Made by a program: the position numbers and the translations under genes
Part shown: one piece after another, positions 5,537 to 64,000 of the stretch
Layout of the letters: each line of letters opens with the position of its first letter
How positions within the stretch are numbered: the stretch's first letter is position 1
The notes under the pieces: generated by a model
Database searches by the model: none
Told to the model about the DNA's origin: nothing
Seen by the model: only the letters and a program-made list of their open reading frames with translations
Assembly: GCA_947302435.1 (NCBI GenBank)
Contig: CAMYVQ010000004.1
Span: 27,783-91,782, forward strand
From: an uncultured Prevotella sp.
Lineage (GTDB): Bacteria > Bacteroidota > Bacteroidia > Bacteroidales > Bacteroidaceae
Direction: 5' to 3'
DNA: 64,000 bases

Positions 5537-5668
5537 TATTGATATTGTTTGATCCCCCGATTGAATAAGAATGACCACACCATTCCATATCAACAACGGC
5601 GTGATTTGATATAAACAACGATACAATCCAATACAAACAGCGATGTTGATGATTTAACAGCAAATTAA
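5537..5668. repeat. 22-bp-period degenerate array upstream of gyrB
   Basis: tattgatattgtttgatccccc / gattgaataagaatgaccacac / cattccatatcaacaacggcgt / gatttgatataaacaacgatac / aatccaatacaaacagcgatgt / (weak sixth unit). Confidence 0.6.
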
Positions 5669-5721: not shown

Positions 5722-7704
5722 ATGACTATACGAAAAATGGCAGAAGAACTGAACCAAGTAGAAAATTATTCCGCGAGTAATATTCAGGTGCTCGAGGGAC
5801 TGGAAGCCGTGCGCAAGCGTCCTGCTATGTATATCGGCGATATAAGTGAAAAGGGACTCCATCACCTTGTGAACGAGACCGTTGACAACTCTATCGACGA
5901 AGCCATGGCTGGCTATTGCACGCACATTGAGGTGACGATTAATGAGGATAACAGCATCACCGTACAGGACAATGGCCGCGGTATTCCCGTTGACGAGCAT
6001 GAGAAGATGCACAAATCAGCCCTCGAAGTGGTGATGACCGTGCTGCATGCCGGCGGTAAGTTCGACAAAGGGAGCTACAAAGTGTCCGGCGGTCTGCACG
6101 GTGTGGGCGTGAGCTGTGTGAATGCCCTTTCCACGCACATGCTCTCTCAGGTATTCCGCAATGGCCATATTTACCAACAGGAATACGAAAAGGGAAAACC
6201 CCTTTACGACGTGAAGATTGTGGGCGACACCGACAAGACGGGTACGCGCCAGCAGTTTTGGCCCGACAGCACCATCTTCACCACTACCGTTTACAAGTAC
6301 GACATCATTGCCAAGCGAATGCGCGAACTGGCCTATCTGAATGCCGGCATTACCATCACACTCACTGACATGCGTCCTGACGAGGAAGGCAACTTGCGTG
6401 AACCCGAGGTGTTCCACGCCAAGGAAGGTCTGAAAGAGTTCGTGCGCTATGTGGATCGCCATCGCACCCACCTCTTCGACGATGTCATCTACCTGAAGAC
6501 CGAGAAGCAGGGAACACCCATCGAAGTGGCCGTGATGTACAATACCGACTATTCGGAGAACATCCATTCCTACGTCAACAATATCAACACCATTGAGGGT
6601 GGCACCCATCTGCAGGGTTTCCGCATGGCATTGACCCGCACGTTGAAAAAATATGCTGACGATGACCCCCAAATCTCGAAACAGATAGAAAAGGCAAAGA
6701 TTGAGATTGCCGGCGAGGACTTCCGCGAGGGCCTTACTGCCGTTATCAGCATCAAGGTGGCCGAGCCCCAGTTTGAAGGTCAGACGAAGACCAAGCTGGG
6801 CAATAGCGAGGTGACAGGTGCTGTCAACCAGGCTGTGGGCGAAGCTCTGACCAACTATTTGGAAGAGCACCCCAAGGAGGCCAAGCTCATCTGTGACAAG
6901 GTAGTGCTCGCCGCTACCGCCCGTATCGCCGCCCGTAAGGCCCGCGAGAGCGTGCAGCGCAAGAACCCCATGACAGGCGGCGGACTGCCCGGCAAACTGG
7001 CCGACTGCTCGAACCGCGACCCGAAGACCTGCGAGATTTTCCTCGTCGAGGGTGACTCCGCCGGCGGCTCTGCCAAGCAGGGGCGCGACCGTCATTTCCA
7101 GGCCATTCTGCCGTTGCGCGGTAAGATTCTGAACGTGGAGAAGGTGCAATGGCACCGCGTGTTCGAGGCCGAGTCGGTGATGAACATCATTCAGAGCATC
7201 GGCGTGCGCTTCGGCGTGGACGGCGAGGGCGACCGCGAGGCTAACATCGACAAGCTGCGCTACGACAAGATCATCATCATGACCGATGCCGATGTCGATG
7301 GCTCGCACATCGACACACTTATCATGACCCTCTTCTACCGCTTCATGCCCCAGGTCATTCAGGGTGGCCACCTCTACATTGCCACGCCGCCGCTTTACAA
7401 GTGTACGTACAAGAAGAATTCCGAATACTGCTATACCGACCAGCAGCGGCAGATGTTCATCGACAAGTATGCCGAGGGCGACGAGCGCAATGTGCATACC
7501 CAGCGCTACAAAGGTCTGGGTGAGATGAACCCTGAGCAGCTTTGGGAGACGACCATGAATCCCGAAAACCGCCTGTTGAAGCAGGTAACGATTGAGAATG
7601 CCGCCGAGGCCGACGAAATCTTCTCCATGCTGATGGGCGACGACGTGGAGCCGCGCCGCGAGTTCATCGAGAAGAACGCCACCTACGCTAACATCGACGC
7701 TTAA
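5722..7704 (+). CDS. gyrB: DNA gyrase subunit B (start may be 5737)
   Basis: YSASNIQVLEGLEAVRKRPAMYIGD, EGDSAGGSAKQGRDRHFQAILPLRGKILNVEK, ADVDGSHI, QRYKGLGEMNPEQLWETTMNP. Confidence 0.97.
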   Translation: MTIRKMAEELNQVENYSASNIQVLEGLEAVRKRPAMYIGDISEKGLHHLVNETVDNSIDEAMAGYCTHIEVTINEDNSITVQDNGRGIPVDEHEKMHKSALEVVMTVLHAGGKFDKGSYKVSGGLHGVGVSCVNALSTHMLSQVFRNGHIYQQEYEKGKPLYDVKIVGDTDKTGTRQQFWPDSTIFTTTVYKYDIIAKRMRELAYLNAGITITLTDMRPDEEGNLREPEVFHAKEGLKEFVRYVDRHRTHLFDDVIYLKTEKQGTPIEVAVMYNTDYSENIHSYVNNINTIEGGTHLQGFRMALTRTLKKYADDDPQISKQIEKAKIEIAGEDFREGLTAVISIKVAEPQFEGQTKTKLGNSEVTGAVNQAVGEALTNYLEEHPKEAKLICDKVVLAATARIAARKARESVQRKNPMTGGGLPGKLADCSNRDPKTCEIFLVEGDSAGGSAKQGRDRHFQAILPLRGKILNVEKVQWHRVFEAESVMNIIQSIGVRFGVDGEGDREANIDKLRYDKIIIMTDADVDGSHIDTLIMTLFYRFMPQVIQGGHLYIATPPLYKCTYKKNSEYCYTDQQRQMFIDKYAEGDERNVHTQRYKGLGEMNPEQLWETTMNPENRLLKQVTIENAAEADEIFSMLMGDDVEPRREFIEKNATYANIDA

Positions 7705-7727
7705 AAAACAAAATAATTTACCAACGC

Positions 7728-7768
7728 AAAGTGCCCCAAGAGTCGGATCAAAACTCTTGGGGCACTTT
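7728..7768. terminator. Bidirectional terminator between convergent gyrB and lrp
   Basis: Perfect 16-bp stem AAAGTGCCCCAAGAGT / ACTCTTGGGGCACTTT with a 9-nt loop. Confidence 0.85.
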
Positions 7769-7791
7769 GTATGGAACAAGAAACACTTTGG

Positions 7792-8265
7792 TTAGAGATT
7801 GATACCGTAGTTCTGTTTCACCTCGCTCATGACAAAGGTGCTCTCGATGGAACCGACGGTTTCTATGTCGCCGAGCTTATTGAGCACGAACTCTTGATAA
7901 TGCTTCATGTCAGCGGCGCGCACTTTCAGCAGATAGTCGTAGGAACCAGAGGTGTTGTAGCACTCCGTCACTTCAGGGATGCGCATGATGCGGTGGGTGA
8001 AGGCATTGGCAATTTCGTGGTTGATCTGCTTCAGTTTCACTTTGCAGAACACCAACAGCCCTTGGTTCAGTTTGTCAGGGTCGAGCACGGCCACATACTT
8101 TTTGATATAGCCCTTCTTCTCCAACCGTTTCTGCCGTTCAAACACAGGAGTTGGGGTCAGGTGTACCGCATCGGCCAGTTCCTTCGTGGTCAGTTTCGCG
8201 TTTCTCTGCAGCGTGCGGAGTATTTGCAGGTCAATCTCGTCGAGTGTTTCCATACGTCTCATCAT
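7792..8265 (-). CDS. Lrp/AsnC family transcriptional regulator
   Basis: METLDEIDLQILRTLQRNAKLTTKELADAVHLTPTPVFERQKRLEKKGYIKKYVAVLDP. Confidence 0.93.
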   Translation of the reverse strand: MMRRMETLDEIDLQILRTLQRNAKLTTKELADAVHLTPTPVFERQKRLEKKGYIKKYVAVLDPDKLNQGLLVFCKVKLKQINHEIANAFTHRIMRIPEVTECYNTSGSYDYLLKVRAADMKHYQEFVLNKLGDIETVGSIESTFVMSEVKQNYGINL

Positions 8266-15584: not shown

Positions 15585-15672
15585 ATTGGTCTTGATTTAA
15601 TCTTGTTTTTATCTATTTCCTTTTGCCCTATTATGTGTCTTGCACAGCATCTGGCAATTGCTGATGATCGCT

Positions 15673-16600
15673 GGGGACGGTTCTGAATGATCACATTTTT
15701 CTCTCATCTGTTTTCCTTTTTATTTTTTGAACTACACCAAAGCTGATGCCTGTGATACGGGCAATCTGACGAATGTCTCCGCCTGCCAAACACAGGTCAG
15801 CCAAGACAACATTACGCTGCTCCTTTTCCAAGGATTGCAGCTCGTGAGGGTTCCTCATCCCATAAGATTCCTTTAGGATGGTTCGTAGATTTTCATCGCT
15901 AACAGAGAAACGTCCATCGTTTTCAATGTCAAGAATATATAGGCTTTCGTCAACAGGCGTCTCAACAAACGCCTTCAGTTCGGCGAATGGAATATGTTTG
16001 ATGACAGAGCCGATCTTGCATAGGCCGTTGGTCACTGTTGTATGTCGTTCGTACTCCTTCCAGCTACTCCAGGGATAGTCCCGTATATTATTGACGAGTC
16101 CTGCCTTGACTGGATTTTGGTGGATATACCTCATAAATATCAAGAAGTAGGACATCTCGTTGACTGGCTCACTTTTGAAACGGTCTTGAAAGAGGTGGCC
16201 GTTACGGTCATATTTCTTGTTGTAATAACGGGCATAGGAAACGCCTAAACGCTTGATGGTCTCACCGATGCTCTCATCTTTCTCCTGTATAAGCAGGTGA
16301 ACATGGTTGCTCATCAGACAATAGGCATAGATGGTGCAAAGTCCAGGTAGAGGCATGCCATTGTCGTCATGTCTTATACATAGTGCATGCAGACAGCCCA
16401 GCAACCGTAGATAATCCTCTTCATCCTCGAAGATGTTCTGACGATTGATGCCGCGGAGCATCACATGATAGATGCCCGTCCCATCTTGTCTTCGTGCCTG
16501 TCGTGCCATTACATTAACTATATACGACTACAAAAGTACACAATTATTATGCTTCTGCCAAATGTTTGGACAGAAAAATGATCATTCAGTCCCGTCCCCA
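15673..16600 (-). mobile_element. RAYT unit: Y1 transposase gene bounded by inverted GGGGACGG..CTGAATGATCA repeats
   Basis: Left end GGGGACGGTTCTGAATGATCACATTTTT (15673-); right end reads TGGGGACGGGACTGAATGATCATTTTTCTG on the minus strand (16571-16600). Confidence 0.7.
15691..16509 (-). CDS. REP-associated tyrosine transposase (Y1_Tnp / IS200-like)
   Basis: MARQARRQDGTGIYHVMLRGINRQNIF..., YCLMSNHVHLLIQE (HxH), GVSYARYYNKKYDRNGHLFQDRFKSEPV, YIHQNPVKAGLV. Confidence 0.95.
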   Translation of the reverse strand: MARQARRQDGTGIYHVMLRGINRQNIFEDEEDYLRLLGCLHALCIRHDDNGMPLPGLCTIYAYCLMSNHVHLLIQEKDESIGETIKRLGVSYARYYNKKYDRNGHLFQDRFKSEPVNEMSYFLIFMRYIHQNPVKAGLVNNIRDYPWSSWKEYERHTTVTNGLCKIGSVIKHIPFAELKAFVETPVDESLYILDIENDGRFSVSDENLRTILKESYGMRNPHELQSLEKEQRNVVLADLCLAGGDIRQIARITGISFGVVQKIKRKTDERKM

Positions 16601-22573: not shown

Positions 22574-22727
22574 GTTATTTTATGAATGATGTCGCGATTT
22601 AAACGGAATGTGCCGGTAGTTCATTTTGAATCGTTTTACAAAGTCGTCGAGTTTGTGTTACAAAGTCGACGAGTTTGTCTCACAAAGTCGACGACTTTGT
22701 AAACTCATTTCATTTGAATGCCAGAAT
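22574..22727. repeat. 22-bp-period array in the divergent pta/epimerase intergenic region
   Basis: Seven in-phase units, including three ACAAAGTCG(A/T)CGA(G/C)TTTGT near-palindromes at 22638, 22660 and 22682. Confidence 0.85.
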
Positions 22728-39594: not shown

Positions 39595-39726
39595 AAACGA
39601 TATTGAATGATGTCGTCGTTGGGCTTGAATGATGTTGTCATTCAATATCAATGATGCCGCCATTCAATATCAATGACGGGATCATTGATATTGAATGGCG
39701 GCACAAAAGAACATCAATGGTGGAAA
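39595..39726. repeat. 22-bp-period array between convergent araC and susD
   Basis: Six in-phase units at 39595, 39617, 39639, 39661, 39683 and 39705. Confidence 0.85.
39655..39703. terminator. Perfect 22-bp-stem hairpin within the array; possible bidirectional terminator
   Basis: TGCCGCCATTCAATATCAATGA cggga TCATTGATATTGAATGGCGGCA. Confidence 0.55.
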
Positions 39727-39731
39727 GGGGC

Positions 39732-41627: not shown

Positions 41628-41662
41628 AATTTTCAATTTTCAATTTTCAATTTTCAATTCAA

Positions 41663-44948: not shown

Positions 44949-46703
44949 TTACTCTTCACGCGGTTTCAGGATGATGCAGTCAATGCGCATGGTGCGCTGA
45001 TAGGCTCCTGCATTCACTTCGGCATCAGTAACGTAGGTGCTCACCTTCAGTGTCGCCTGAGGATCGCTCTCCGTCACGCCATAGGAACAGACATCGAACT
45101 TGTGTCCGGCTTTCACCAGCAACATATCGACAGAGTCCTTTTGGGTCTCAACGGGAGTATAGAACGTCTCCTTCTTGGCCTTTCCGTCCTTGCCACGATA
45201 GCCCAACTCGAACAAGAGCTTGATGGGAGCACGGTCGATGTCGACGGCGGCCGTATCGCCGGCAAGGCCGGTAGCCGTCCTTACGTAAATGTCGTAGGGG
45301 ACATTCGACATCACTTCGGGAATCCAGAAGATGACCTCATGCTGGGTGTTACCACCGTCGACCAACTGCGTGAACTCCACGAAAGAGTGGCCGGAAATCT
45401 TATTGTAGTAAGGGTTGTCCGAGTCAACCTTCACCGTCGTTGCCAGCACGGTCTCAATGGTATCCTTCTTCACGGTCTTCTTCACAAGCTCCTTGATGGC
45501 CTTCGGGCTTTCAGCCTCCACGATGATGTCGTGCATGAAGGTCTGCTGCGGCTCGAACTTCCAGTTGCTGGTCTTCATCACCTGACCGTTGCTGCACTGC
45601 ACATTGGTGGTGCCGGCCATGATGCCCTGCATAGGCTTCTGATACTGATAGTAGGCCAGCGTGTCGGCTCCCCACTTGTATTCACGCATCTCGTATTCCA
45701 CGGCATTGGTTGACATGGCTGAGTCGGCCAGCATCTTGTCGGTGTTCAGCGTGCGGCTGAAGACGGTACCCTTCATGATGGCCATACGGATATTGGTGTA
45801 GGTCAGCGAATCGACATCGCCCTTGGTGAGGTCCTTTTCAATGGCCTTGTCGTAATTGAAGTAAGGAGTGTACTTCTCGACCAGTGCGTCCCAGACCTCG
45901 TTGGTCGGTGTCACCATCCAGTAGGTACTGTCCTCTGAGTTCAGCTCTGCATCGAGGGCGTCATAGTCGAACAGCGTGTTCTCCTGCACCATCACCGAGT
46001 CGGAATAGACGGTCTCACCGTCGCGGATGCTGTCGGGCACGCTTCGCTCGGCATCGAATTCCAGTCGGTAGTGACGGGAGTTATAGAAGAACTCGCTCAT
46101 GTTCTTCAGGTCGTCGTCCTTCTTCAAGTACTCAAACACGTTCGCATAGTAAGGCACCACCTTGTTCAAGGTGAAGAGCACACCATTACTATAGAGGGCA
46201 TTGCTCGAAGCCAGGTCTATGCCCGAGAACTGTGCATGGTCGAGGGCGTGGTGCTTCCCGTTCATGGTGGTGAGGGTGTCTGTGCGGCCCTCGGCCACCG
46301 AATAGTTATAGAGCGAGATGTGGTTCTTCACGAACTCCTTCACCACGGTATTGTCCTCTTCGCGCACAGAGTTGGCTTTCTCCTGCTGGTAGAGGGCAAT
46401 CATCGACTGGGCTTCTGTCTCGCTGAAAGAGGCATTGGTGGGAGCGAAGACCGTGAACACCTGACTACCCTTGAGCGAACGGTCATAGCCTGTGGCCTCG
46501 ACAACACTGGCAAAATTGCTCAGTTCGGAATTGCCCTTGATGGCTTCCCACAGTGAACCTTGGTTCATGTTCGCGCCTGAAGCCACCCCTTCATAGTGGT
46601 CGTCCCACTTGTCGGAGCATGCCGTGATGACTGCGGCAGTGCCGCAGCCCACGGTAATGGCCATTAGGATTTGTTTTATGCTTTTACTTGTCATATCTTT
46701 CAA
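44949..46703 (-). CDS. Fasciclin (FAS1) domain lipoprotein
   Basis: TACSDKWDDHYEG lipobox; ELSNFASVVEATGYDRSLKGSQVFTVFAPTNASFS. Confidence 0.9.
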   Translation of the reverse strand: MKDMTSKSIKQILMAITVGCGTAAVITACSDKWDDHYEGVASGANMNQGSLWEAIKGNSELSNFASVVEATGYDRSLKGSQVFTVFAPTNASFSETEAQSMIALYQQEKANSVREEDNTVVKEFVKNHISLYNYSVAEGRTDTLTTMNGKHHALDHAQFSGIDLASSNALYSNGVLFTLNKVVPYYANVFEYLKKDDDLKNMSEFFYNSRHYRLEFDAERSVPDSIRDGETVYSDSVMVQENTLFDYDALDAELNSEDSTYWMVTPTNEVWDALVEKYTPYFNYDKAIEKDLTKGDVDSLTYTNIRMAIMKGTVFSRTLNTDKMLADSAMSTNAVEYEMREYKWGADTLAYYQYQKPMQGIMAGTTNVQCSNGQVMKTSNWKFEPQQTFMHDIIVEAESPKAIKELVKKTVKKDTIETVLATTVKVDSDNPYYNKISGHSFVEFTQLVDGGNTQHEVIFWIPEVMSNVPYDIYVRTATGLAGDTAAVDIDRAPIKLLFELGYRGKDGKAKKETFYTPVETQKDSVDMLLVKAGHKFDVCSYGVTESDPQATLKVSTYVTDAEVNAGAYQRTMRIDCIILKPREE

Positions 46704-46753
46704 TGTTGAATGTTGATTGTTGAATTTTCAATTCTCCATTTTCAATTCTCTAT

Positions 46754-48895
46754 TTACAGGTCGTCCTCCATCTGGCCGGCACCGCTGATGTCGTAGACAT
46801 TCTTCGGCACAAGTTCCAGATAGTCGAGCATGAACTCATTGTTGTTACCCTGCTTACCGTCGCTGGCTACGCGAATACGGATGTAATAGGGCTTGCTGCA
46901 ATCCATGTAGTTCTGCGACAGGATTCGGCGATAGGTACGCCAGTTGCCCGTCCAACGGGTCATGTCGTCACCATTGGTGTGGAATGTTCCGTAAGGACCA
47001 CGCACGATACCAAGGTTACGGAAGGCCTTCATGCTCTCGGCCAACTGCTCGTTGTCGCTGCGGATCTTGTTGTAGGCGGTGTTGTTCTGGCCTTCGTCCT
47101 CAGCAGGCATCAGCTCGGTGAGTCCCAGCATTTCGGGGTCGGTGATGAAACGGGTCATATCCATAGGAATGCCCTGCGGAATCATGTGGTTGGGATCGTC
47201 GCCAAAGTAGATCTGGGCCACGCCACGGGTACGGAGGGCACAGAAGCCCAAGCGCACCTGCCACTCGCCACTAAACGGCACGGGCGGCAATCGGAGAATG
47301 AAGTCATAGTCGCCGAAGATGTTGAACTCATCGCCCTCGAACGACCAGAAGTTGATGTGCGGACGACGATAGACGAAGGCGCAGTTGCCTCTCAGCTTGA
47401 TGTGATCCAGATAGCCGTCGGGGAAGTAGTAGTTCTTACCATTCTTAGGACTTGCGGACTCGTCGGCGGTGCCGGATGCGTCGTCAACGGTAGGATTACC
47501 CTTTTGGCGTATATCGTTGGTCATGATTTCAGGGAAGATGGTAGCGAAGTCCATGCGGATTCGCATGTTCTGGATCTTCTCCTGCACGTCCTTGCTGAAG
47601 CAGACGATATCGTCGACGTAGAAGTAGTGGCCGTTCAGGGCATCCTGCTCATACTCAGACTCAACATTCTCGGTAATCAGCTGACCCTTGTTCCAGTCCT
47701 GCTCGTCGGGATATTTGGCATCCACACGACGGTTGATGTAACGCTCACGGGCCTTGCTGCTGCCCACATACTTGGGCACGGTCAGCATCTCGATCTTGGC
47801 CATGGTGTGAGGCAGCATGGTCTCATACCAGTCGATGGGGTTCAGCAAATCCTCGTCGTAGCCCAATGTCTTGCCGTCGAGCTTCTTGCCGGGGAAGTTC
47901 AGAATGAGCGGTGTCAGCTTGTCACTGCCGGGCACATAGCGGGTCAGAATCGTGTACTGAATGAGACGGCGCAGCGGGTTCACGCTGTCGGTGAGATTCT
48001 CATACTTATGGCCCTCCTTGTTCACGTCGGCGGGATAGACGGGGTCGTAAATCTCGCACGCCTTGTCATAGAGCTGGCGCAGCGACTCGATGTTGTACTT
48101 ATCCTTCAGCACGGAGTTCGGCGTGACAAAGAATGTGAAAGCCGTCTTCTTCGTGTCAGGCACCCAGGCAACCTCTTTCCAGAAGTCGGAAGTATAATAG
48201 TACTTCTCATGGGACTTGGGATCCCAAGAGGTGTCTTCGGGGTCGGTATTGGCAATGTCCTCGCCCACGCCCGTAGCCATCAGTGCATCGTAGAACAGGC
48301 TGATACGGTCGTTGTCCTTCAGCACCTCAAGAATACTGCCGCTCGAAGTCTCCAGCACTTGGTTGATGGGCTGCATGATGCCGTTCTCCACTGAGTCGTC
48401 GCGCAGCTCATAATAGATGTGTGCGCCACGGGTGTTGAGGAACACCACGGCATTCTGGTTCTCGTCGAGTCCGGCGATGGTGGGCAGATAGCGGCGCATC
48501 AGGTTGGCATCGTGCAGCTGCGTGCCGTTCATGTCCATCGTGGAATACATATTGTTCACCAAATGCGTACGGGCAATCGTATCACAATCGGCATCGGTCA
48601 GGTCGGCCAGACTTGCCTTGTTGTGTTTCTTCAGATACTCGTCAAAGGCATCGTTGTCTGGCACGAAACAGGTGTAGTGTCCATAGCTGGCAAGCATGTC
48701 CATCAGATTGGCACGCTCCACCACCGTTGCAAAGTCACTGTACTTCGCATTATTCTTCAGATAGTCGCTGGCCATCTCACCGGTGAAGGTGTAGAAGTTT
48801 TCGCTATCCGGCTCGTCGGAGCATGAGGTCAGTCCGCCCCATGCGAGAGCAGTGGTAATAGCAACCAGGGCAAATATATTATTTTTGATTCTCAT
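46754..48895 (-). CDS. Fasciclin (FAS1) domain lipoprotein
   Basis: LTSCSDEPDSENFYT lipobox; YSDFATVVERANLMDMLASYGHYTCFVPDNDAFDEYLKK. Confidence 0.9.
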   Translation of the reverse strand: MRIKNNIFALVAITTALAWGGLTSCSDEPDSENFYTFTGEMASDYLKNNAKYSDFATVVERANLMDMLASYGHYTCFVPDNDAFDEYLKKHNKASLADLTDADCDTIARTHLVNNMYSTMDMNGTQLHDANLMRRYLPTIAGLDENQNAVVFLNTRGAHIYYELRDDSVENGIMQPINQVLETSSGSILEVLKDNDRISLFYDALMATGVGEDIANTDPEDTSWDPKSHEKYYYTSDFWKEVAWVPDTKKTAFTFFVTPNSVLKDKYNIESLRQLYDKACEIYDPVYPADVNKEGHKYENLTDSVNPLRRLIQYTILTRYVPGSDKLTPLILNFPGKKLDGKTLGYDEDLLNPIDWYETMLPHTMAKIEMLTVPKYVGSSKARERYINRRVDAKYPDEQDWNKGQLITENVESEYEQDALNGHYFYVDDIVCFSKDVQEKIQNMRIRMDFATIFPEIMTNDIRQKGNPTVDDASGTADESASPKNGKNYYFPDGYLDHIKLRGNCAFVYRRPHINFWSFEGDEFNIFGDYDFILRLPPVPFSGEWQVRLGFCALRTRGVAQIYFGDDPNHMIPQGIPMDMTRFITDPEMLGLTELMPAEDEGQNNTAYNKIRSDNEQLAESMKAFRNLGIVRGPYGTFHTNGDDMTRWTGNWRTYRRILSQNYMDCSKPYYIRIRVASDGKQGNNNEFMLDYLELVPKNVYDISGAGQMEDDL

Positions 48896-48920: not shown

Positions 48921-51077
48921 TTAATTATTCTGCTCATAGCTTCCGTTCTCACCGCTACCGAAGGCAGGATTCTGCTTCAGGTTCGTGTTCACTTTCAGCT
49001 CGTTGATATTATAGGGCCAGAAGATGCCGTCCATCTTCGACAAGCGCATACGCACGGCTTCTCCTCCACTCGTCATCTTCTTGACGACAGTGGTAGCAAG
49101 TTTCTCGCTGGTACCCTCGCGCCAAGCCTCACGCACCAAGTCGTAGTAGCGCTTTCCCTCGAAGAGCAACTCACGCTGGCGCTCCGACTGTATCAGTTCC
49201 ACCAAGACGGACTTTGAGCGGTAGTTGTCAAGAGCCAATGTGTCGCTGGTCGTGAGCGTACGGGAAAGTATGGCACGCTTGTTCACGGCATTCACCAAGT
49301 CGAATGCTTGCACAATATACGTCTCATTCTGAGCCAGTGCCGTAGCATCCAGTTTCATGCCCTTCATCAGCTTACCGAAGACGATGACTGCATCGCCGGC
49401 CTTGGGGCGCTTGGCACCCGATTTCGCGATAGCCTTGTTGCCAAGACCCATCACCTCGTTGACCAGCAGTGTCTCTGTGCCACTTTCCTGCACCAGAGTG
49501 AAGGTTGCCTTGCCGGTTTCGTCGTCAATGACGATGTCGTCGCCGATCGTACCTTTGATGAAGTAGTACTTCTCCGATGATTTCGAGATTTCCAGTTCCT
49601 CGATCACACGCAAGGCACGCACCACATCGACGGTGTCCTTCTTGTCTTCCAAGCTGGCATCGGCAGAACCCTTTTGTGTGTTCAGTCTCCAGAGATAGCA
49701 TCCCGGGGCGGTCTTCGGCTCAGGAACATCAGTACCTTGCACCATCAGCTGTGTCAGTGCCTCGGCCTTGAGCAGCATGATGTCGGTGAGACGATAGATA
49801 ATCCAATTGCTCTTGTTCAGGCCTTCCGTCCATTTCGTACTATACGTAGCCTTCGGGTCTTCCGAAGTGCTGGTAGCATCGATAGACAGCGACTGATAGA
49901 CGAACTTGGCAATAGCCTCTGAACCTTCGTGGCATGCCTCATAGTAGCGGGCGTCCCGCTTGTTCTCAAACAGCGTGCCGTTGTCGCCCATCACCACGCT
50001 CGAAGGAGCCACATAGCCACGGGCCACATTGCCATGACCATAGAACAGGTTGACAGCCGTATTCGACAAGGTGTTCTTGTTTTCCGTTTCCTTGCCTGAG
50101 AAGGTCAGCTCGAAAATGGCTTCCTGGCTGTTGCCTGTGATGAACAGGCTATTGTAAGCATTGCCAAAACGGTTGCCCGAATACTCGGAGATGAGGGGGT
50201 AGCCGTTGGTACGCTCCGTATCAGTCTGCGTGAGGCCGCTCATGGAACTTCCTGTTTTGCCGCTCTTAGCCTCTTCCTTCTTGGAAGCGATGACGCGGTT
50301 GGCAGCATTGATACAATTCTGGTAGTCCTTGTTCCAGAGATACATGTCGCAAAGGATGGCATCGATGGCATCCTGCGTGATGCGAGCCGTCTGATAGAGC
50401 GGCTGCGTGGAAGGATAACGCTTCACGGCATCGTTGCGCACACTCTCCAAGTCGGCAATCAACATGTTGAGTGCCTCGTTGAACGGTGTGACAGGCAATT
50501 CCATGGCCTGGTCGTCGTCGATGAAAGCCTCAAAGGAAATAGGCACATCACGGAACGTACGGATGAGGTAGAAATAGCAGAGGTCGCGCAGGGCGGACGC
50601 CTCGGCAATCGTGGCACGAAGTTCGCCAGGGGTATAGCCCGGATCCTTCTCGGCCACCTCAGGGGCATACTTGATGATGGTGTTGCAACGGTTAATGACA
50701 TTGTAGAAGCCCTCCCAGTTGGTATAGTCGTTCGAAGCCGTGAGGTTCTCCTTCAACAGGTTGGTGAGGCTGAGATCCTTGTCAGCATTCAGGCCCACAC
50801 TGATGTTGTCGCTGCGGAACTCTCCCCAGATCATCATGCGGCGCACGACATCGTCACTCTGCATTCGCGAGTAGCAGCCCATCATGATTGCCTCTACATC
50901 GGCCTTTTCATTCCAGAACTGATCCAGTGTGATTTCATTCTGGGGTTCAATCTCCAGGAAGTCAGAGCAACCGGAAAAGAGGAAAGTGGAGAGAGGAGAG
51001 AGGAAAGAGATGAGCACCGCTCCCTTCATCTTCTTATATATATATGTTGTTCTCATAACTTTCATTTCAATTTTCAA
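48921..51077 (-). CDS. RagB/SusD family lipoprotein with an inserted OB-fold-like segment
   Basis: SGCSDFLEIEPQNEITLDQFWNEKADVEAIMMGCYSRMQ; ERQRELLFEGKRYYDLVREAWREG. Confidence 0.93.
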   Translation of the reverse strand: MKIEMKVMRTTYIYKKMKGAVLISFLSPLSTFLFSGCSDFLEIEPQNEITLDQFWNEKADVEAIMMGCYSRMQSDDVVRRMMIWGEFRSDNISVGLNADKDLSLTNLLKENLTASNDYTNWEGFYNVINRCNTIIKYAPEVAEKDPGYTPGELRATIAEASALRDLCYFYLIRTFRDVPISFEAFIDDDQAMELPVTPFNEALNMLIADLESVRNDAVKRYPSTQPLYQTARITQDAIDAILCDMYLWNKDYQNCINAANRVIASKKEEAKSGKTGSSMSGLTQTDTERTNGYPLISEYSGNRFGNAYNSLFITGNSQEAIFELTFSGKETENKNTLSNTAVNLFYGHGNVARGYVAPSSVVMGDNGTLFENKRDARYYEACHEGSEAIAKFVYQSLSIDATSTSEDPKATYSTKWTEGLNKSNWIIYRLTDIMLLKAEALTQLMVQGTDVPEPKTAPGCYLWRLNTQKGSADASLEDKKDTVDVVRALRVIEELEISKSSEKYYFIKGTIGDDIVIDDETGKATFTLVQESGTETLLVNEVMGLGNKAIAKSGAKRPKAGDAVIVFGKLMKGMKLDATALAQNETYIVQAFDLVNAVNKRAILSRTLTTSDTLALDNYRSKSVLVELIQSERQRELLFEGKRYYDLVREAWREGTSEKLATTVVKKMTSGGEAVRMRLSKMDGIFWPYNINELKVNTNLKQNPAFGSGENGSYEQNN

Positions 51078-51091
51078 TTTTCAATCTTCAA

Positions 51092-54000
51092 TTAAAAGTC
51101 AACCGTTACACCCAATGTATAAGAACGCGAACGCGGTGTCTGGGCATTGTCCATAGCGGGATCGTAGCCACCCTGCGAGATGTCGGGGTCGACACCCGAA
51201 TACTTCGTGATGACAAACGGGTTGTTCACACTGGCATAGACATTGATACGGTTCAGTCCGATCCACTTCAGATACTTCTTCTTGATGGAGTAGGACAACT
51301 GGGCATAACCCATACGCAGATAAGAGCCATCCTCCACGAAACGGTCGCTGACCAGCGTGTTATACTGTGAGGAAGCACCATACATGGCACGGGGGATCGA
51401 GGTCACGTCGCCATTCTTACGCCAGCGGTAGTTCACGGCCTGGCTCTGGTTGTCGTTGCCGATCATTGCCTCGGAACGAAGGCGTGCCAGATTCAGGATC
51501 TTGTTACCGAAGCGATAGGTGAACTGCGTGTTCAGACGCCAGTCGCCGTAAGTGAAGGTGAAGCCGAAACCACCCGTCAGCTTAGGCAGTGAAGTACCGA
51601 TATAAACGATATCGAGGGCGTTGATCTGTCCGTCGTGGTTGATATCCTCGTAGATGGCATCACCACCATTGAACTGATAGTTCTTACCCGTACCGTCGTT
51701 GGTGTAGTTGTACATCATGCGGAGCGGCTTGCCGTCAGAGCCATAGACAGGCTTGCCCTGTGCATTGAGCACGATAGGAGCGGTCTTGCCGGAAGCCAAG
51801 AACTCGTTCTCCACCCAATTCCTGTACTCTGCCTCAGTGTTAAATTCACGAAGCTTGTTGCCCACATAGTCGTAGGTGTACTGATAGACACCCAATGAAC
51901 GGAAACCGTAGATAGCACCAAGCGGATTCTGCAGCTGTACGCGGCGCAGCCACTCGGCATTGTTATAGGCAAAGGTAGAGTTCAGACCCTTCAGAATGTA
52001 CTCGTCCATCTCCAAGATGGTGTTCTTGTTGTTACCGAAGTTCGCATTCAGGTCGAAGCCGAACTTGCCTGCCTTCACCAGACCGTTGGTGGTGATATGG
52101 AATTCCCAACCCATGTTGCGCATCTTACCCGAGTTGCGGTAAGGCAGCGTAGCGAAACCGGTGTTTGAAGGAATGCGGTAGTTCTCCATCAGCATGTCGG
52201 TAGTGGTCGACGAATAGGCTTCCAACGTCAGGCGTAAACGTTCACCCTCGAAGAAGGCGAGGTCGACACCGGCATTGTAGGACGACACAATCTGCCAGCG
52301 CAGGTCAGTCAGTCGGATGTTGGAAGGAGCCATTGCCGTCTGGTTCAGATAGCTGCTGGTTGTATTATACTTGGAAGTATAGAGATAGTCAGAACGCGGC
52401 TGGTTACCCACACGACCCCAGCTGGGACGAATGGCCAGCATCGAGAGCACGGGCTTCAGTTTTTCCATCCAAGGCTCGTCACTGATGATCCACTTCAGAG
52501 AGACCGAGGGGAAGTAGCCCCAGCGGTTGTTGGGACCGAACTTCGTCGTGCCGTCGGCACGTACCGTGAAGTCGAACACATAACGCTCCTTGTAAGCGTA
52601 GTGGGCCGACAGCGTGTAGTACATGGAACGCCACTCATTGAACCACGACGACAAACCAGTGATGACACCGCCGGCATCGGGGCTTTCGACACCGCCCGAA
52701 GGCAGGCCGCTACCGCTGGCCGACTGTCCGGTGCTGGAACCTGATGTCAGCTCGAAGCGGCCCATGAACATGGCGCTATGGTCTTTATTGGTAAAGGCGG
52801 GAACGAGGGTCAGGGTCTGCTTGGTGTTGATCGACACGCTCTTTGAAGAACCCGAATAGCTGGTGTTCACACCGTCCTGCCAACCCACGCTGCGCAGTTC
52901 CTGCGGATAGAACGAGTCGTCGTACTGATTGAAGACGTTCATATAGACCGATCCGCGCCAGTTCAACTGCAGGTGATCCTCGTCGGTGCCTAAGAGGTGA
53001 TAGTTGATGATCAGCTCAGGCGACATGTCGTAGGTGCGGCGCTGGTTCTTGGCCAGATTAGCCGAAGCCACGGGGTTCACATAACCTTTCTGGTTGTCCT
53101 TGGCACCAGCCTTCGACTCGTTGAACACGGCACTGCCCGACTGTAGCATGGTATAGTAGCGGTCGGTATTGGCACCCGTCACGGGATCCTGCTCGTAGAT
53201 GCTCATGTTCGGCATCTTGCGCATAGCCAGATCCAGCAGACCGTCGCTGTTCATGTCGTTCTTGGTGTAGGTCAGCGAGAAGTTGGTGCTCACACGGATG
53301 CGCTCACTGATGTTATAGTCAAGGGCTACACGGGTAGAGAAGCGGTTCAGCTTCTGCTTGATAATCGTACCTGTCTCATGGTCGAAACCGCCACCGATAC
53401 GGAACGAGGCTTTCTCGCCACCACCCGAGATGCTGACGTAGTGGTTCTGGCGGAGACCCCACTGTGTGACGGCATCGCGCCAGTCGGTGTTGTTGTTATA
53501 CTGCTGATACTCCGAGAAAGTCGGGTCGTACATCAGTTCGGGGATGTTGGCGGCCTCACTGCTCTGCTGCGGGTTAAAGTAGCTCTCCTTGAGCAGCATG
53601 GTGTAGTCGTCACCGCTCAACAGGTCGTAACCCTTCGGCTGATAGGTGCCGGTGAGCTTCAGCGAGTAGGTGAGTTTCGGTTTGCCTCGTACACCACGCT
53701 TAGTGGTCAGCTCGATGACACCGTTACCACCCTGCGAACCATAGACGGCCGTAGCGGCAGCATCTTTCAGCACGCGGATGTCCGAGATGTCCTCCGGGTT
53801 GATGTTCAGCAGTTCGGCGAACTTCTCCTGGTTGGCCGAGGCCATGTCGAAGTTGTCGAGGTTCACTTCACGGATATTGCCGTCGATCACAATCAGCGGG
53901 TTGGCATCGGTGAGCGAGGAGAGCGAGGACACACCACGCAGACGCATGGTAGAACCCGAACCCAGGTCACCAGAATTACCGATAATATCCAGACCGGCGA

Positions 54001-57556: not shown

Positions 57557-60500
57557 TTACTTGCGGATCTTTCTTACAACGATGCTGCCATTGCTAAGCG
57601 TGGTCTTCATAATCATGATACCCTTCTGCATGCTGTTGGCACGGCGACCGTCGATGGTGAAGAACTCTCTGCGGAGCACTGAAGGCTCAGCTGCGAGATT
57701 ATCAACTGCAACAACCTGCTCCAAGTCAATCGGAGTAGCAACCTTGGCACTGTTCTCTCCATAGTAGGTCAGTGTCCAGTTGTCGAAGAGCGTCCAGCTC
57801 TTGCCCTGATCGCCCTTCTTTCTCAGACCGATGCGCAGCTTGCCGTTGGCGGGAACCTTCACAATCACGCTGTTGTTCATGTACTTCTCTTCGAGGAACA
57901 CTTCGCTGGCCGTAGCCATGTTGTTGGCCACATAGCGATACTGTACAAGGGTGTCCTGCAGAGCCACGCCAGTCTCCGGATCGGTTTCGCCAGTCGGAGT
58001 GAAGGTGGTGTCAGTAGCACAGAAAGCGTAGCCAGCCATCTCCTCAGGTGCAATATCTGTCCAGTCGCTTGCCTCGGCAGCCAGACGGATCAGCGGAGTA
58101 GCGAAGTAGGTATAATTGCCATCGTCGGTGGGAGAGATAGCAGCATAGAGATATGCATTGTTGCTGTACTCAGTCTGCAACGAATCGTAATCCATCGTAG
58201 GCAATCCATAGCGATAGAAGGCCTGAACTCTCAGCTCGTAGGTACCAGGCTGCAGGTTCACGAGATCCTGATAGTAGTCGTACTTCCTGACGTCGAAAAT
58301 CTCGGCATTGCCATAGTCGCCATTGCGAGCAGCCTGCTGACCCTTCCAGCCGTCATTGTTCTCGTCGTAGTTGGGGTTGTTGATGGCCGAAGTATAATCC
58401 TTTGGATTATCATCGCTAACCAGTTTGGGATCAACCCACTCCACACGCAGGGCAGCAATAGCCTCGTCTACCTTGTCAACATAGTTATCGACATCGGTAT
58501 CCTCAATGCTGTGGGCATTCATCAGAAGACCGATTTCCGACAGCAGATTCTGGGCAGTGGTGATGGCATTTGCAGAAGCAGTGCTCTCGTATGTGCCAAT
58601 AGCCTCTTCGAGCTTTGTCTTGGCATCGGCCAGCTCGCTAAACTTGTTGATAGAGGCAGTGACGAGCGAGTCAACCTTGAACAGGCCAGCCAAGGCGTCG
58701 AACATCTGCTTGCCAGTGATAGGTTGAGAAGGATCGAGCCCCATGGCAGCATTTGCAGAAGCGAGGGCTGTGCTCAGTTCGTTGTAGGCAGTCTTACTCA
58801 TCGGTTCGCCCAGTTTCTCCTGATAGATGGCAATCTGCTCTTCGAGCACGGGCTGAATAATATCCACAGCATAGCCAACCCAAGTCAGCTTGAAGTTATC
58901 GAAAATCACCCAAGAGTCGCCAAGCTGGTTGGAAGAACCCTTCACACCAATACGCAGATCCTGACCCTCGCGAACGAGACCCATAGCCTCCTGCGTGTAC
59001 ATGCCAGCACCGAAAGCTGTAGCGGCATCGACCATGCCATTAGGATAGTACTCTGTTCCGTCTGGGCTTACGTATGCAGCCAGGTCACCAGTAGCCTTAT
59101 AGAATCCTTCTTCCTTAGGTTCGTCGAACACGTTCACGAACGGAGTGGTCTTCTCGTTCAGATAGACGAAGCAGGGAGCGCCACCCTTCTTCACGTAGGG
59201 TTCCACCTGTGCCTTATAGGCATTATAGGCATTGTCGCCACGACCGTAGCGATAGAATCCCTGCACAGAAATCTTGTAGACACCCACGGGAGCTTCCTTC
59301 ACCACCTGATAGATGTCGAACGAGCTGTTGTTCCATGCCTCAGCGCACTTGCTGCTCACAGCCACGTTGCCACCAGAGGCAGCAGTCTTGGTCCAGCCAT
59401 TCCAGCTATTGGTTTCGAAAGCGGGGTTCTCCAACATGTCGGTCATCTCCAAGTCCTTCGCAGTGGGAGAAGGATGCTTCATTGCAACAGCGATTTCAGC
59501 CTTCTTCTCAGCAATCAGGGCGCGGATCTGGTCATTGGTCAGCTGGCGCTCACCCTTCAGCTGCATCACGTTCATGGCCCATTCGCCAAGAGGACCCGTA
59601 TAGGTGTAGTCCAGATTCATATTGGCGCCTACAGCCTCAGCCTGCTTGGCAACCACATCAAGGTCGAGCCACAGCTGGGCGTTGGTGGTCAGCGTATCGT
59701 AGGCTTCCTCCAATGCGTTCAGAGCAGCCACGATGTCGGCGGCAGCGTTAGAAGCAGGGGCAGCCGACTCGAATGCCTGCAGGTAGGGGATAGAAACCAC
59801 ATACTGGTCGTCGGGCAGCTGATAGGCTTCCTTCGTCTTTTCAAACACCATCTGATAGGCATCAGCCTCGTTGCCGTAATAGTTCAGGCTCCAGCTGTCG
59901 AAGAGGGTCCAGTCGTTAGAGAGCTGGGTCTTCTTCTGCAGACCAATGTTCATCTCACCCTCGGGAAGGATAAAATACATGGTGTTGTCATAGTTGGCGG
60001 CGTTGTCGTTGATTTCCTCGTCGAAGAAGACAGCAGCCGTCTGCATGTTGTTGGGCACATAGATTTCCTCATTGATGTTGACAGTACCTTCATAGCCGAG
60101 GTCGTTGTCAGCACCACCGGCATACTGGTTCACCACGGGGAAGCGCACCTCACCGGCAGAGGTCTTGGCATAAAGCTTGGCGTTACGGTTGTTCTGAATC
60201 AGGAATGCCTGATAAGCCTCCTCAATAGAACCCGGACGATAGTAGGCACGCACCTTCACGGAGTACACACCGGGACGGGCACCCTTGATGTTCTGATAGT
60301 AGGTGTAGTTCTTGCCGAAGAACTCGGCATTTCCATAAGACTCGAAGCGAGGTTCATCGCCCGTCCACCCCTCGTTGTTGTTGTTCTCGTAGTCGGGGTT
60401 GACGAGCAGCTCGGTCACGTCGATAGGATCGTCAGCCGTGGCACCCTCGCCAATCAGGCCGTTCATGGCAGTCATAAGAGCCAAGATCTGAGCATCCATC

Positions 60501-61219
60501 TCCTCAATGGTACTCTCCAGATTGTTATACACTTCACAAGCATTCATAATCAGGTTGTCATCTACTTCAGCCTCTACGGCACGGTCGATGGCAGCCTGCA
60601 ACTCTTTCGCCTTGTTGTAGATCACCATGGCAGCCTCATACTCTTTCCAGCCGGGAGCCGAATAGAGTTGCCAGTCGATGTCACCAGAGGCAAGCAGATA
60701 GGTACGGGTGTCGTTCTTGGCAGGATTATAACCGAGGAAGAGGTTGTCTCCCTGAGTTACGCAGCTCAGACGGATATCCTCACCAACAGCAGTCACCTTC
60801 CAGAAGCGGTTGGCTTGACTATTATTGTCTGTCCAAATACCTTCGGGACCGTCAGCAAACGCACTACGGAACTCGCTGAACTTAGGCACGTAGTTCTTCA
60901 GCTCATAGACACCCTCGCCCTTTTCCTTGGCGGCAGAAGTCTGAGTGAAGTAGACCACAGCAGCCTGCTTGTCGTTGAAGCTGGCACGTGTATCCCAGTC
61001 GTTACCGGCGATAAAGAACATGTTGGCACCCTTGTTGTAGAGCACATAGTACTCATCAGCCTGGAATGCCTGAGGAGTTTTGTCCAATGCAGCCAGGGCT
61101 TCCTCATCAAAGGTGTTACCCGGACTTTCTGGAGCTACACGCTCAGTGTAGTCCTGAGCATTTGCGCTAAGACCTAACAGCCAAAGCGCACTCAAAACGA
61201 GTAGTTTTGAAATCTTCAT
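57557..61219 (-). CDS. Large secreted protein with three related beta-sandwich-like modules and T9SS-like C-terminal domain
   Basis: Signal peptide; NPDYENNNNEGWTG / NPAFETNSWNGWTK / NPNYDENNDGWKG modules; C-terminal FFTIDGRRANSMQKGIMIMKTTLSNGSIVVRKIRK. Confidence 0.8.
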   Translation of the reverse strand: MKISKLLVLSALWLLGLSANAQDYTERVAPESPGNTFDEEALAALDKTPQAFQADEYYVLYNKGANMFFIAGNDWDTRASFNDKQAAVVYFTQTSAAKEKGEGVYELKNYVPKFSEFRSAFADGPEGIWTDNNSQANRFWKVTAVGEDIRLSCVTQGDNLFLGYNPAKNDTRTYLLASGDIDWQLYSAPGWKEYEAAMVIYNKAKELQAAIDRAVEAEVDDNLIMNACEVYNNLESTIEEMDAQILALMTAMNGLIGEGATADDPIDVTELLVNPDYENNNNEGWTGDEPRFESYGNAEFFGKNYTYYQNIKGARPGVYSVKVRAYYRPGSIEEAYQAFLIQNNRNAKLYAKTSAGEVRFPVVNQYAGGADNDLGYEGTVNINEEIYVPNNMQTAAVFFDEEINDNAANYDNTMYFILPEGEMNIGLQKKTQLSNDWTLFDSWSLNYYGNEADAYQMVFEKTKEAYQLPDDQYVVSIPYLQAFESAAPASNAAADIVAALNALEEAYDTLTTNAQLWLDLDVVAKQAEAVGANMNLDYTYTGPLGEWAMNVMQLKGERQLTNDQIRALIAEKKAEIAVAMKHPSPTAKDLEMTDMLENPAFETNSWNGWTKTAASGGNVAVSSKCAEAWNNSSFDIYQVVKEAPVGVYKISVQGFYRYGRGDNAYNAYKAQVEPYVKKGGAPCFVYLNEKTTPFVNVFDEPKEEGFYKATGDLAAYVSPDGTEYYPNGMVDAATAFGAGMYTQEAMGLVREGQDLRIGVKGSSNQLGDSWVIFDNFKLTWVGYAVDIIQPVLEEQIAIYQEKLGEPMSKTAYNELSTALASANAAMGLDPSQPITGKQMFDALAGLFKVDSLVTASINKFSELADAKTKLEEAIGTYESTASANAITTAQNLLSEIGLLMNAHSIEDTDVDNYVDKVDEAIAALRVEWVDPKLVSDDNPKDYTSAINNPNYDENNDGWKGQQAARNGDYGNAEIFDVRKYDYYQDLVNLQPGTYELRVQAFYRYGLPTMDYDSLQTEYSNNAYLYAAISPTDDGNYTYFATPLIRLAAEASDWTDIAPEEMAGYAFCATDTTFTPTGETDPETGVALQDTLVQYRYVANNMATASEVFLEEKYMNNSVIVKVPANGKLRIGLRKKGDQGKSWTLFDNWTLTYYGENSAKVATPIDLEQVVAVDNLAAEPSVLRREFFTIDGRRANSMQKGIMIMKTTLSNGSIVVRKIRK

Positions 61220-61467: not shown

Positions 61468-61599
61468 CATTGATATTGATTTATGTCATTATTTATATAA
61501 AATGATGTAATCGTTTGACTTCAATGAGGTGATCATTGAACTTTAATCATGACATCATTTGACTTCATTCCCAACATCATCTATATTGAATGACGGGAA
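61468..61599. repeat. 22-bp-period array upstream of the large secreted protein
   Basis: Six in-phase units at 61468, 61490, 61512, 61534, 61556 and 61578. Confidence 0.75.
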
Positions 61600-61671
61600 C
61601 GTCAACGGGAACCGTTTTTTAGGGTGCCGGACATTCCTCGCATCGCGCGCGTATATAAATAATAAGGTGTA

Positions 61672-61706
61672 AAAAAGCGGCCGGATGTGTTGCATCCAAG
61701 CCGCTA
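61672..61706 (-). terminator. Rho-independent terminator of pnp
   Basis: Minus strand AGCGGCttGGATGcaacaCATCCgGCCGCTTTTTTAC. Confidence 0.85.
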
Positions 61707-61756: not shown

Positions 61757-64000
61757 TTAGAAGTCCATGTGGTCGAGGGCATCGCTGAAGCCACGGGGCT
61801 CATGGTCGGCCTGAGGCTCATGATACTCGTCAGCGTGTTCAGGACGGGGACGGAAGTCGGGACGGGGGCGACGTTCGCCACGCTCGGGCCTTTCGCCGCG
61901 CTCCGGACGGGGACGGCGCGTTCCGTCACCATGCTCGGCACGACGCTCGCCGCGCTCGGGACGCTCGCCACGCTCACGACGGGCAGGGCGCTCCACGTAG
62001 CCCTCGGGCTTCGGAATGAGCACACGGTGAGAGAGCTTGTACTTGCCGGTCTTCGGGTCGATCTCAAGCAGCTTCACGGTGATGTGGTCGCCTTCCTTGA
62101 TGCCTGCCTCCTCGACGGTCTCCAAGCGCTTCCAGTCAATCTCCGAAATATGGAGCAGACCGTCCTTGCCGGGCATAATCTCCACGAAACAGCCGTAAGG
62201 CATGATGCTGCGGACCACACCGTCGTAGACTTCGCCCACCTCGGGGATGGCCACGATAGCACGGATCTTGGCCAGGGCTGCATCGATGGCCTCCTTGTCG
62301 GGACCGGCCACCTGCACCTTGCCCACGCCGTCGACCTCGTCGATCGTGATGGTGGTATGGGTGTCTTCCTGCATCTGCTGGATAATCTTGCCGCCAGGGC
62401 CGATGACTGCACCGATGAACTCCTTCGGAATCTCGATCTGGACGATGCGGGGAACCTGGGGCTTGAAGTCGGCGCGAGGCTCGCTGATGGTGTCGGTGAG
62501 GCAGTTCAGGATATGCTCACGACCGGCCTTGGCCTGCATGAGGGCCTTCTCCAAGATGTCGAACGACAGACCGTCGCACTTGATGTCCATCTGGGTGGCG
62601 GTCAGACCGTCGCGTGTACCAGTGGTCTTGAAGTCCATATCGCCCAAGTGGTCCTCGTCGCCAAGGATGTCGCTGAGCACGGCATATTTGTCTTCTCCGG
62701 GATTCTTGATCAGACCCATGGCGATACCCGAAACGGGCTTCTTCATGGGAACACCTGCATCCATCAGAGCCAGTGTGCCGGCGCAGACGGTAGCCATCGA
62801 CGACGAGCCGTTGGACTCCAGAATCTGGCTGACAAGGCGCACCGTGTAGGGGAAGTCCTCGGGAATCTGACCCTTCAGACCGCGCCAAGCCAAGTGGCCG
62901 TGACCGATCTCACGACGGCCTACGCCGCGCTGAGCCTTGGCCTCGCCCGTGCAGAACGGGGGGAAGTTGTAGTGAAGGAGGAAGCGCATGTAGCTCTTGT
63001 CGAGCACATCGTCGACCATCTTCTCGTCGAGCTTCGTGCCGAGGGTACAGGTGGAGAGGCTCTGGGTCTCGCCACGGGTGAAGATAGCCGATCCGTGAGG
63101 CATGGGCAGGGGCGACACCTCGCACCAGATGGGGCGGATGTCGGTGGTCTTACGACCGTCGAGACGGATGCCCTCGTCGAGGATGCAACGGCGCATGGCA
63201 TCGCGCTCCACGTCGTGATAGTAGCGATCCATCATGGCCGAGTACTCGTCGTCGCTGATCTCGGTTTCGTTGTCAGCGACCGAGTCGCTGACCACAGAAC
63301 TGGCGGCTGCCTTGCGCTCTGCGAAGAACTTCTCCTTGAAGTCCTCGAGGAGCTTCTCGAAAGCCTCGGCGCGCTGCTGCTTCTCCAATGCCTGCTTGGT
63401 GATGTCGTAGGCGGGCTGGTACAGCTCCTTGTTCATACGCTCGCGCAGGGCCTCGTCATTGACCTCGTGGTTGTACTCGCGCTTCACGTCCTTGCCAAGC
63501 TCCTTGCTCAGCTCGGCCTGCAGCTCGCACATGGGCTTGATAGCCTCCATAGCGGCCTTCAGCGCACCGAGCAGATCCTGCTCAGAGACTTCCTTCATTT
63601 CGCCTTCCACCATCATGATGTTCTCAGCCGAAGCACCGACCATGATGTCCATGTCGGCACGCTTCATCTGTTCGAAGGTGGGGTCAATGACATACTCACC
63701 GTTGATACGGGCCACGCGCACCTCACTGATGGGGCACTCGAAGGGAATATCCGAGCAGGCCAGGGCTGCCGAAGCTGCAAAACCGGCCAAAGCATCGGGC
63801 TGGTCCACACCATCTGCCGAGAGCAGCATGACGTTGACGAAAACTTCTGCGTGATAGTTAGAGGGGAAGAGTGGACGGAGAACGCGGTCCACGAGTCGCG
63901 ATGTCAGGATTTCATTGTCTGAGGCTTTGCCTTCGCGCTTGGTGAATCCACCGGGGAAACGGCCTGCGGCACTGTACTGTTCGCGATAGTCTACCTGCAG
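61757..64000 (-). CDS. pnp: Polyribonucleotide nucleotidyltransferase (5' end beyond window)
   Basis: Frame open to window end; RNase PH core, KH ([24 protein letters not shown]), S1 ([32 protein letters not shown]), R/G/E-rich tail. Confidence 0.96.

Follow-up and report, generated by a model that had tools for sequence, protein, structure and literature searches.

Intergenic arrays with a 22-bp period in Prevotella: a six-unit array after pnp and its relatives

Background

The REP, BIME and REPIN elements with their RAYT transposase (TnpA_REP) are the described systems that come closest to the arrays reported here. Like the arrays they are short, imperfectly palindromic and intergenic, occur in many copies, often 3' of genes, and form several species-specific families per genome with a mismatched hairpin. 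The arrays differ from REP and BIME elements in that they carry no GTAG or CGTC tag and no consistent transposase linkage, have a constant unit number and keep a strict 22-bp tandem phase which is common to unrelated sequences. Elements of the ERIC/IRU type, imperfect palindromes of about 130 bp, also lie between genes, but they have no sequence relation to the arrays and we know of no internal 22-bp periodicity in them. The sites of SlmA, Noc and MatP resemble the arrays as palindromic protein sites dispersed in dozens between genes. These sites are single and conserved across genera, whereas the arrays are phased, their sequence changes between species and their protein is putative. DNA uptake sequences share species-specific dialects, a perfectly kept core and even spacing with the arrays; they are, however, roughly 1500 single 10-12-mers, while the family called dialect 2 below comprises 57 multi-unit blocks.

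Within the Bacteroidales, the BrickBuilt MITE of Porphyromonas gingivalis consists of near-identical 23-nt direct repeats (AGAYCATARTATCCTCTCRTRTG) in variable number, with a leader, a tail and IS-like terminal inverted repeats (PMC4596501). It is likewise intergenic, built of tandem short units and present in about 20 copies per genome (PMC4596501). The arrays are not members of this family, given their period of 22, diverged units, different flanks and unrelated sequence. Nor are they CRISPR arrays, which have identical repeats with unique spacers of similar size; here the units are diverged, the variable parts measure 3-9 bp and the loci are dispersed in dozens.

Results

The array after pnp

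The window analysed here is a stretch of 64,000 nucleotides from an uncultured Prevotella sp. of gut or rumen. An earlier note on it had described six consecutive 22-bp units in phase between the pnp terminator and the next gene, a description borne out in both parts. The sequence is as quoted, and each unit of the array (61469..61600; this and the other arrays are listed without strand) is composed of a 13-bp core RTYNRWNWTNRAY and a 9-bp spacer NRYNNNRYN. Upstream lies pnp (61757..64000, minus strand), which encodes polynucleotide phosphorylase with RNase_PH, KH and S1 domains and extends past the window end. An intrinsic-terminator-like hairpin with a T run (61681..61699, minus strand) is situated between pnp and the array and is distinct from the latter. 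The gene downstream (57557..61219, minus strand) encodes a predicted protein of 1220 aa without a Pfam or NCBIfam match, so that its earlier label as 'T9SS-type' lacks such support. Syntenic homologues with 28-29% identity follow pnp at the loci L166 and L168. Of the orthologous gaps after pnp, that of L166 has no array and that of L168 has one of another dialect, the sequences being too diverged for insertion dating. After pnp of another Prevotella (L214, 2480-2900) we observed a nested palindrome of about 290 bp with direct repeats of about 11 bp (CGTGAATGAC, CATAAATGAC) that invert at its centre, possibly a half-period relative of the 22-bp arrays.

The array was scored with a 22-column unit matrix trained on loci other than the array itself. 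The six consecutive 22-mers from 61469 onwards reached 16.2, 12.3, 17.5, 22.4, 8.9 and 13.6 bits, and the 22-mers bordering them -30 and -35 bits, which marks out exactly six units with sharply defined edges. The six-unit sum was 90.9, whereas 20,000 Markov shuffles of its own AT-rich intergenic stretch reached at most -13.6; sums above 60 were found at 30 of 1.68 million genomic positions. Random AT-rich intergenic DNA, named in the earlier note as the case that would speak against the array, thus does not match its score in a phase-aware profile scan, and unit 1, noted as almost equal to the consensus, is one base off the consensus core ATTGATATTGAAT. Tandem Repeats Finder detects the middle of the array alone (61501-61567) because the units have diverged. 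As a hairpin the array is weak: it folds at -30/-28 kcal/mol, where the family averages -47/-45.

The matrix scan revealed two further arrays of the same family, dialect 1, in the window. One, of six units (39596..39727), takes up the whole space that separates an AraC-type gene from a convergent SusD-like gene and holds a perfect 22-bp inverted repeat; the other, of five units (5538..5647), lies 74 bp before gyrB. A different element, dialect 2, consists of three units of ACAAASTCGWCGASTTTGT with a 22-bp period (22638..22700). It is located between divergent genes, adjoins a gene for an NAD-dependent epimerase and has on its flanks cores of the dialect-1 type that keep the phase of its units. 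Repeats of other kinds were also seen in the window, namely six copies of a 69-bp repeat in a reading frame resembling leucine-rich-repeat surface proteins (2638-3066) and runs of 7-bp repeats (AATTTTC, TTTCAAT) shortly before SusC/SusD-type genes (41628-41659, 46698-46755 and 51065-51093).

Dialect 1 in the genome

The source genome is a 2.63-Mb draft, 76% complete, whose pnp has its relatives in Prevotella; about 1.06 Mb of the draft was read directly and the remainder by pattern search. A degenerate two-unit pattern matched the genome 390 times and its reversed control 6 times. In the 1.06 Mb there were 37 dialect-1 arrays, 20 with exactly six units and none with more; those with fewer may have decayed ends. 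This constant unit number, seen across the arrays of one genome, led us to reject a minisatellite (VNTR). Both neighbours are known for 33 of the 37 arrays, the other four lying at stretch ends. All 33 are intergenic, 18 of them in a tandem, 9 in a convergent and 6 in a divergent gene context, in keeping with the earlier view of one family not limited to a single promoter or terminator arrangement. In the tandem contexts the array is closer to the upstream stop than to the downstream start in 16 of 18 cases. The spacing of dialect 1 along the genome is not obviously over-dispersed.

The units, RTYNRWNWTNRAY-NRYNNNRYN, are symmetric about the centre of the core as well as about that of the spacer; each is near-palindromic and the whole six-unit block is mirror-symmetric. 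The spacers are specific to their position and mirrored, S1 approximating [GC]ATGTCGYC and S5 the reverse complement of S1, while S2 pairs with S4. The block therefore has a defined centre and defined ends. T2, T9 and A12 are near-invariant and positions 4, 7, 10, 14 and 17-19 are free. The inner positions of the core are anti-complementary and the mirror spacers weakly complementary. Between loci, units agree at 12.7 of 22 positions in register and at 11.6 out of register.

Dialect 2 and its spacing

Dialect 2 is the largest of several other families and is unrelated in sequence to dialect 1. At 57 loci it comprises three units of ACAAASTCGWCGASTTTGT in 22-bp phase with 3-bp spacers, and dialect-1-type cores stand exactly 22 bp beyond the last unit. 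In 50 loci all three units match the degenerate consensus perfectly; the 3-bp spacers are hypervariable and the outer ends mostly fixed (46/50 on each side). The S bases facing each other across the spacers agree in every one of 100 cases, a C.C or G.G mismatch if folded as a hairpin, from which it follows that the true module is an oriented CGACTTTGT-NNN-ACAAACTCG in either direction.

Along the chromosome the copies are evenly spaced. All 19 gaps between copies on the same contig measure at least 12.1 kb, where 10.5 gaps below 12 kb would be expected, and none of 20,000 simulations was as extreme; this holds for 52 placed copies, 50 of which represent every perfect copy on contigs 1-55, with about five imperfect or small-contig copies left out and some contig sizes interpolated. 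Such spacing suggests a role at the level of the chromosome.

The 22-bp period in other sequences and species

An autocorrelation that makes no use of a particular sequence detected 53 intergenic period-22 arrays and not a single coding one in 1.06 Mb, some stretches of which had been picked for already containing arrays. Other periods from 12 to 43 gave at most 7 arrays each, and period 44, twice 22, gave 31. The density at period 22 was 39 arrays per Mb in the own genome (0.5 at other periods), 27-49 per Mb in stretches from other Prevotella (2-7 at neighbouring periods) and, in a small sample from the family's other genera, 15 per Mb (1 at neighbouring periods). The order's other families and 100 kb of E. 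coli gave values close to zero. Altogether 86 period-22 arrays yielded 83 distinct consensus units, a few of them from the own genome or from duplicate loci. Their palindromy was 0.64, compared with 0.53 in shuffled units, and they folded strongly (mean z -4.6); arrays of periods 18, 21, 24 and 27 from the same sequences showed neither excess palindromy nor strong folding.

Each Prevotella species spells the 22-bp unit differently. A relative, G086, has a sister dialect, ATTAATATTGAATCTCGCTGCA, with 6-8 mirror-ordered units: half of the array consists of direct repeats, the remaining half of inverted ones. One such array follows the same gene as an array of G000, the downstream gene being different. 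An array from another Prevotella (L156, 13996-14137) is built of a GC-rich perfect palindrome, TTGGCAGCGGCCGCTGCCAA, which means that the arrays are not united by AT-richness or curvature. Similar period-22 arrays are present in loci of the cultured strains Hoylesella marshii, H. buccalis, H. shahii and Prevotella dentasini (L221, L224, L225 and L238).

These observations suggest a shared and apparently undescribed feature of the chromosome. No description of such arrays was found in the open-access literature. The window and six loci gave no Rfam match at gathering score, viral contigs contained neither the dialect-1 nor the dialect-2 pattern, and plasmids, searched with dialect 2 only, gave no match. 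We regard the arrays as a novel form of intergenic palindromic repeat that may well be a kind of its own.

Discussion

A proposed phased array of binding sites on double-stranded DNA

The reading that we place first, and hold only tentatively, is that the arrays are phased binding sites on double-stranded DNA at the boundaries of transcription units, with dialects drifting between species. The array after pnp would then be one of a genome-wide set of phased addresses. We infer a putative protein of two-fold symmetry that would bind as one dimer per near-symmetric 22-bp unit. As 22 bp correspond to two helical turns, neighbouring dimers would come to lie on the same face of the helix and might form a short cooperative filament, which could mark or insulate operon boundaries or organise the nucleoid. 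Dialects differing at constant spacing might arise if the protein co-evolves with its sites or if paralogous proteins are used.

Dyad-symmetric sites at whole helical turns are indeed present, with a 22-bp period and dyads every 11 bp, and helical phasing of dimers would explain the exact 22-bp spacing together with most of the near-palindromy and its broken centre. The specificity of the period over some 80 unrelated units and the exclusively intergenic location count in favour of a DNA address, as do the two unrelated families that share one 22-bp phase within one element. The same is true of the fixed unit number, the mirror-ordered spacers and the sister dialect of G086, and of the over-dispersion of dialect 2. 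In dialect 1 the strongest dependencies are those between adjacent bases rather than between pairing partners, and these, with the near-invariant T2 and A12 beside free positions, fit DNA recognition or shape readout. On the other hand, the breaking of symmetry is rule-like, in the S bases of dialect 2 as in the anti-complementary core, which argues against the site of a homodimer, and so many unrelated sequences per genus, several of them in one genome, would be unusual for a DNA-binding protein. Palindromy, strong folding in unrelated arrays and the modest partner covariation (W1-W3, p 0.0003; spacers, p 0.01-0.03) also fit hairpins. It is rather unlikely that the arrays form a marking system of the whole clade (Prevotella and close genera) in which the geometry is conserved, with phased near-palindromes every 22 bp at the edges of gene clusters, and an evenly spaced address sequence is rewritten genome-wide between species.

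Possible mobile hairpins

Second in rank, and somewhat doubtful, is a REP- or MITE-like origin: chains of hairpins of about 22 nt with obligatory mismatches, spread in trans by an HUH (Y1) or another transposase, so that dialects would be successive bursts matched to a transposase. HUH enzymes recognise hairpins 20-25 nt long (PMC6006769). Binding of hairpins by such a transposase would account for the mismatches and for copies arising in bursts. The arrays have the intergenic position, the palindromy, the several families per genome and the restriction to few species that such an origin would entail (dialect 2 occurs in 3 of 299 Prevotella genomes), and the copies of dialect 2 are near-identical, with variable loops and the obligatory C.C or G.G mismatch. 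In addition, a dialect-2 element of G086 separates two genes that stand 13 bp apart in G000; its site shows no clear target-site duplication.

The search for a transposase gave a divided answer. In genome G016, 22-bp arrays of the local dialect lie near all three Y1 transposase loci, on both sides at two of them. These loci are, however, copies of one composite, in which a Y1 gene of subclass-1.2 type stands between 22-bp arrays and CCCCACGTNGGCTCACTTCGCTCACCNACGTGGGG palindromes; it was observed in G016 at L307 878-2210, L300, L310 and L127 ~7650-7860, and also without the Y1 gene. Among 398 Prevotella genomes, no more than 67 possess a Y1 gene of the G016 type. Both Y1 genes of the source genome, as far as its 76% complete assembly goes, carry other flanking repeats. 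The window itself contains a Y1/HUH transposase gene of the REP-associated type (15691-16509, minus strand; 272 aa, YIHQNP motif) that is not linked to 22-bp arrays and is flanked by inverted repeats GGGGACGG(G/T)(A/T)CTGAATGATCA at 15668-15696 and 16580-16600. At L135 (contig 80, 352-1500) a RAYT gene (595-1143, 182 aa) has canonical GTAGGGGCAGGCCCTGTGCC REP palindromes on its flanks, and the end of the contig holds a degenerate 22-bp array. Moreover, G026 (99% complete) and G035 (94%) possess arrays yet no Y1 gene. A GT[AG]G or CGTC tag is absent from the consensus of unit and flank, and this, together with the lack of a clear target-site duplication, also speaks against mobility of the known type. 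We set aside membership of the RAYT/REP system, on account of the own Y1 genes with other repeats and the array-bearing genomes without Y1, and kept mobility as a rival through G016. It would leave unexplained both the exact 22-bp period of unrelated sequences and the even spacing.

A possible RNA-level role or mutational by-product

We consider it rather improbable that the arrays act in RNA, the transcribed block forming a long imperfect hairpin or a hairpin chain that shields the 3' ends of mRNA or halts transcription arriving from either side. The position of arrays, immediately downstream of genes and between convergent ones, would suit such a role, as would the weak complementarity of mirror spacers and the finding that real six-unit arrays, at -47/-45 kcal/mol, fold better than chimeras of units from the same positions (-41/-40 kcal/mol, p 0.002) and better than versions with shuffled units (p 0.02). 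The array reported here, however, lies past the pnp terminator and folds weakly, six arrays stand between divergent genes, the leading dependencies link neighbouring bases instead of pairing partners, Rfam offers no match and folding gives no reason for exactly 22. An intrinsic terminator in particular was rejected: of 47 array-bearing 3' ends, 39 have an element that does not itself resemble a terminator, a T run at the end of an array is uncommon, canonical intrinsic terminators are neither enriched nor depleted at these ends, and that of pnp is separate from the array.

Least probable is a functionless by-product, palindromic intergenic DNA that multiplies and corrects itself by replication slippage and template switching: although neighbouring units match at 13.2 of 22 positions and distant ones at 12.3, units resemble each other more within an array than between arrays and dialect-2 modules occur in both orientations, as minute palindrome inversions would produce, slippage would not fix a period of 22 across unrelated sequences and species with neighbouring periods empty, cap the units at six or preserve the arms of dialect 2 beside random spacers.

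Significance

Prevotella dominate the rumen and many human guts, and little is known about the organisation of their chromosome and the behaviour of their intergenic repeats. A class of repeats that is defined by a 22-bp period and by symmetry, not by sequence, would be missed by homology searches. Since period-22 arrays are present in cultured strains the question can be taken to the bench. If the arrays are addresses for a protein, they would represent a DNA-binding system that evolves rapidly and sits at the boundaries of operons; if they are mobile, they would be a hairpin repeat that spreads independently of any known transposase.
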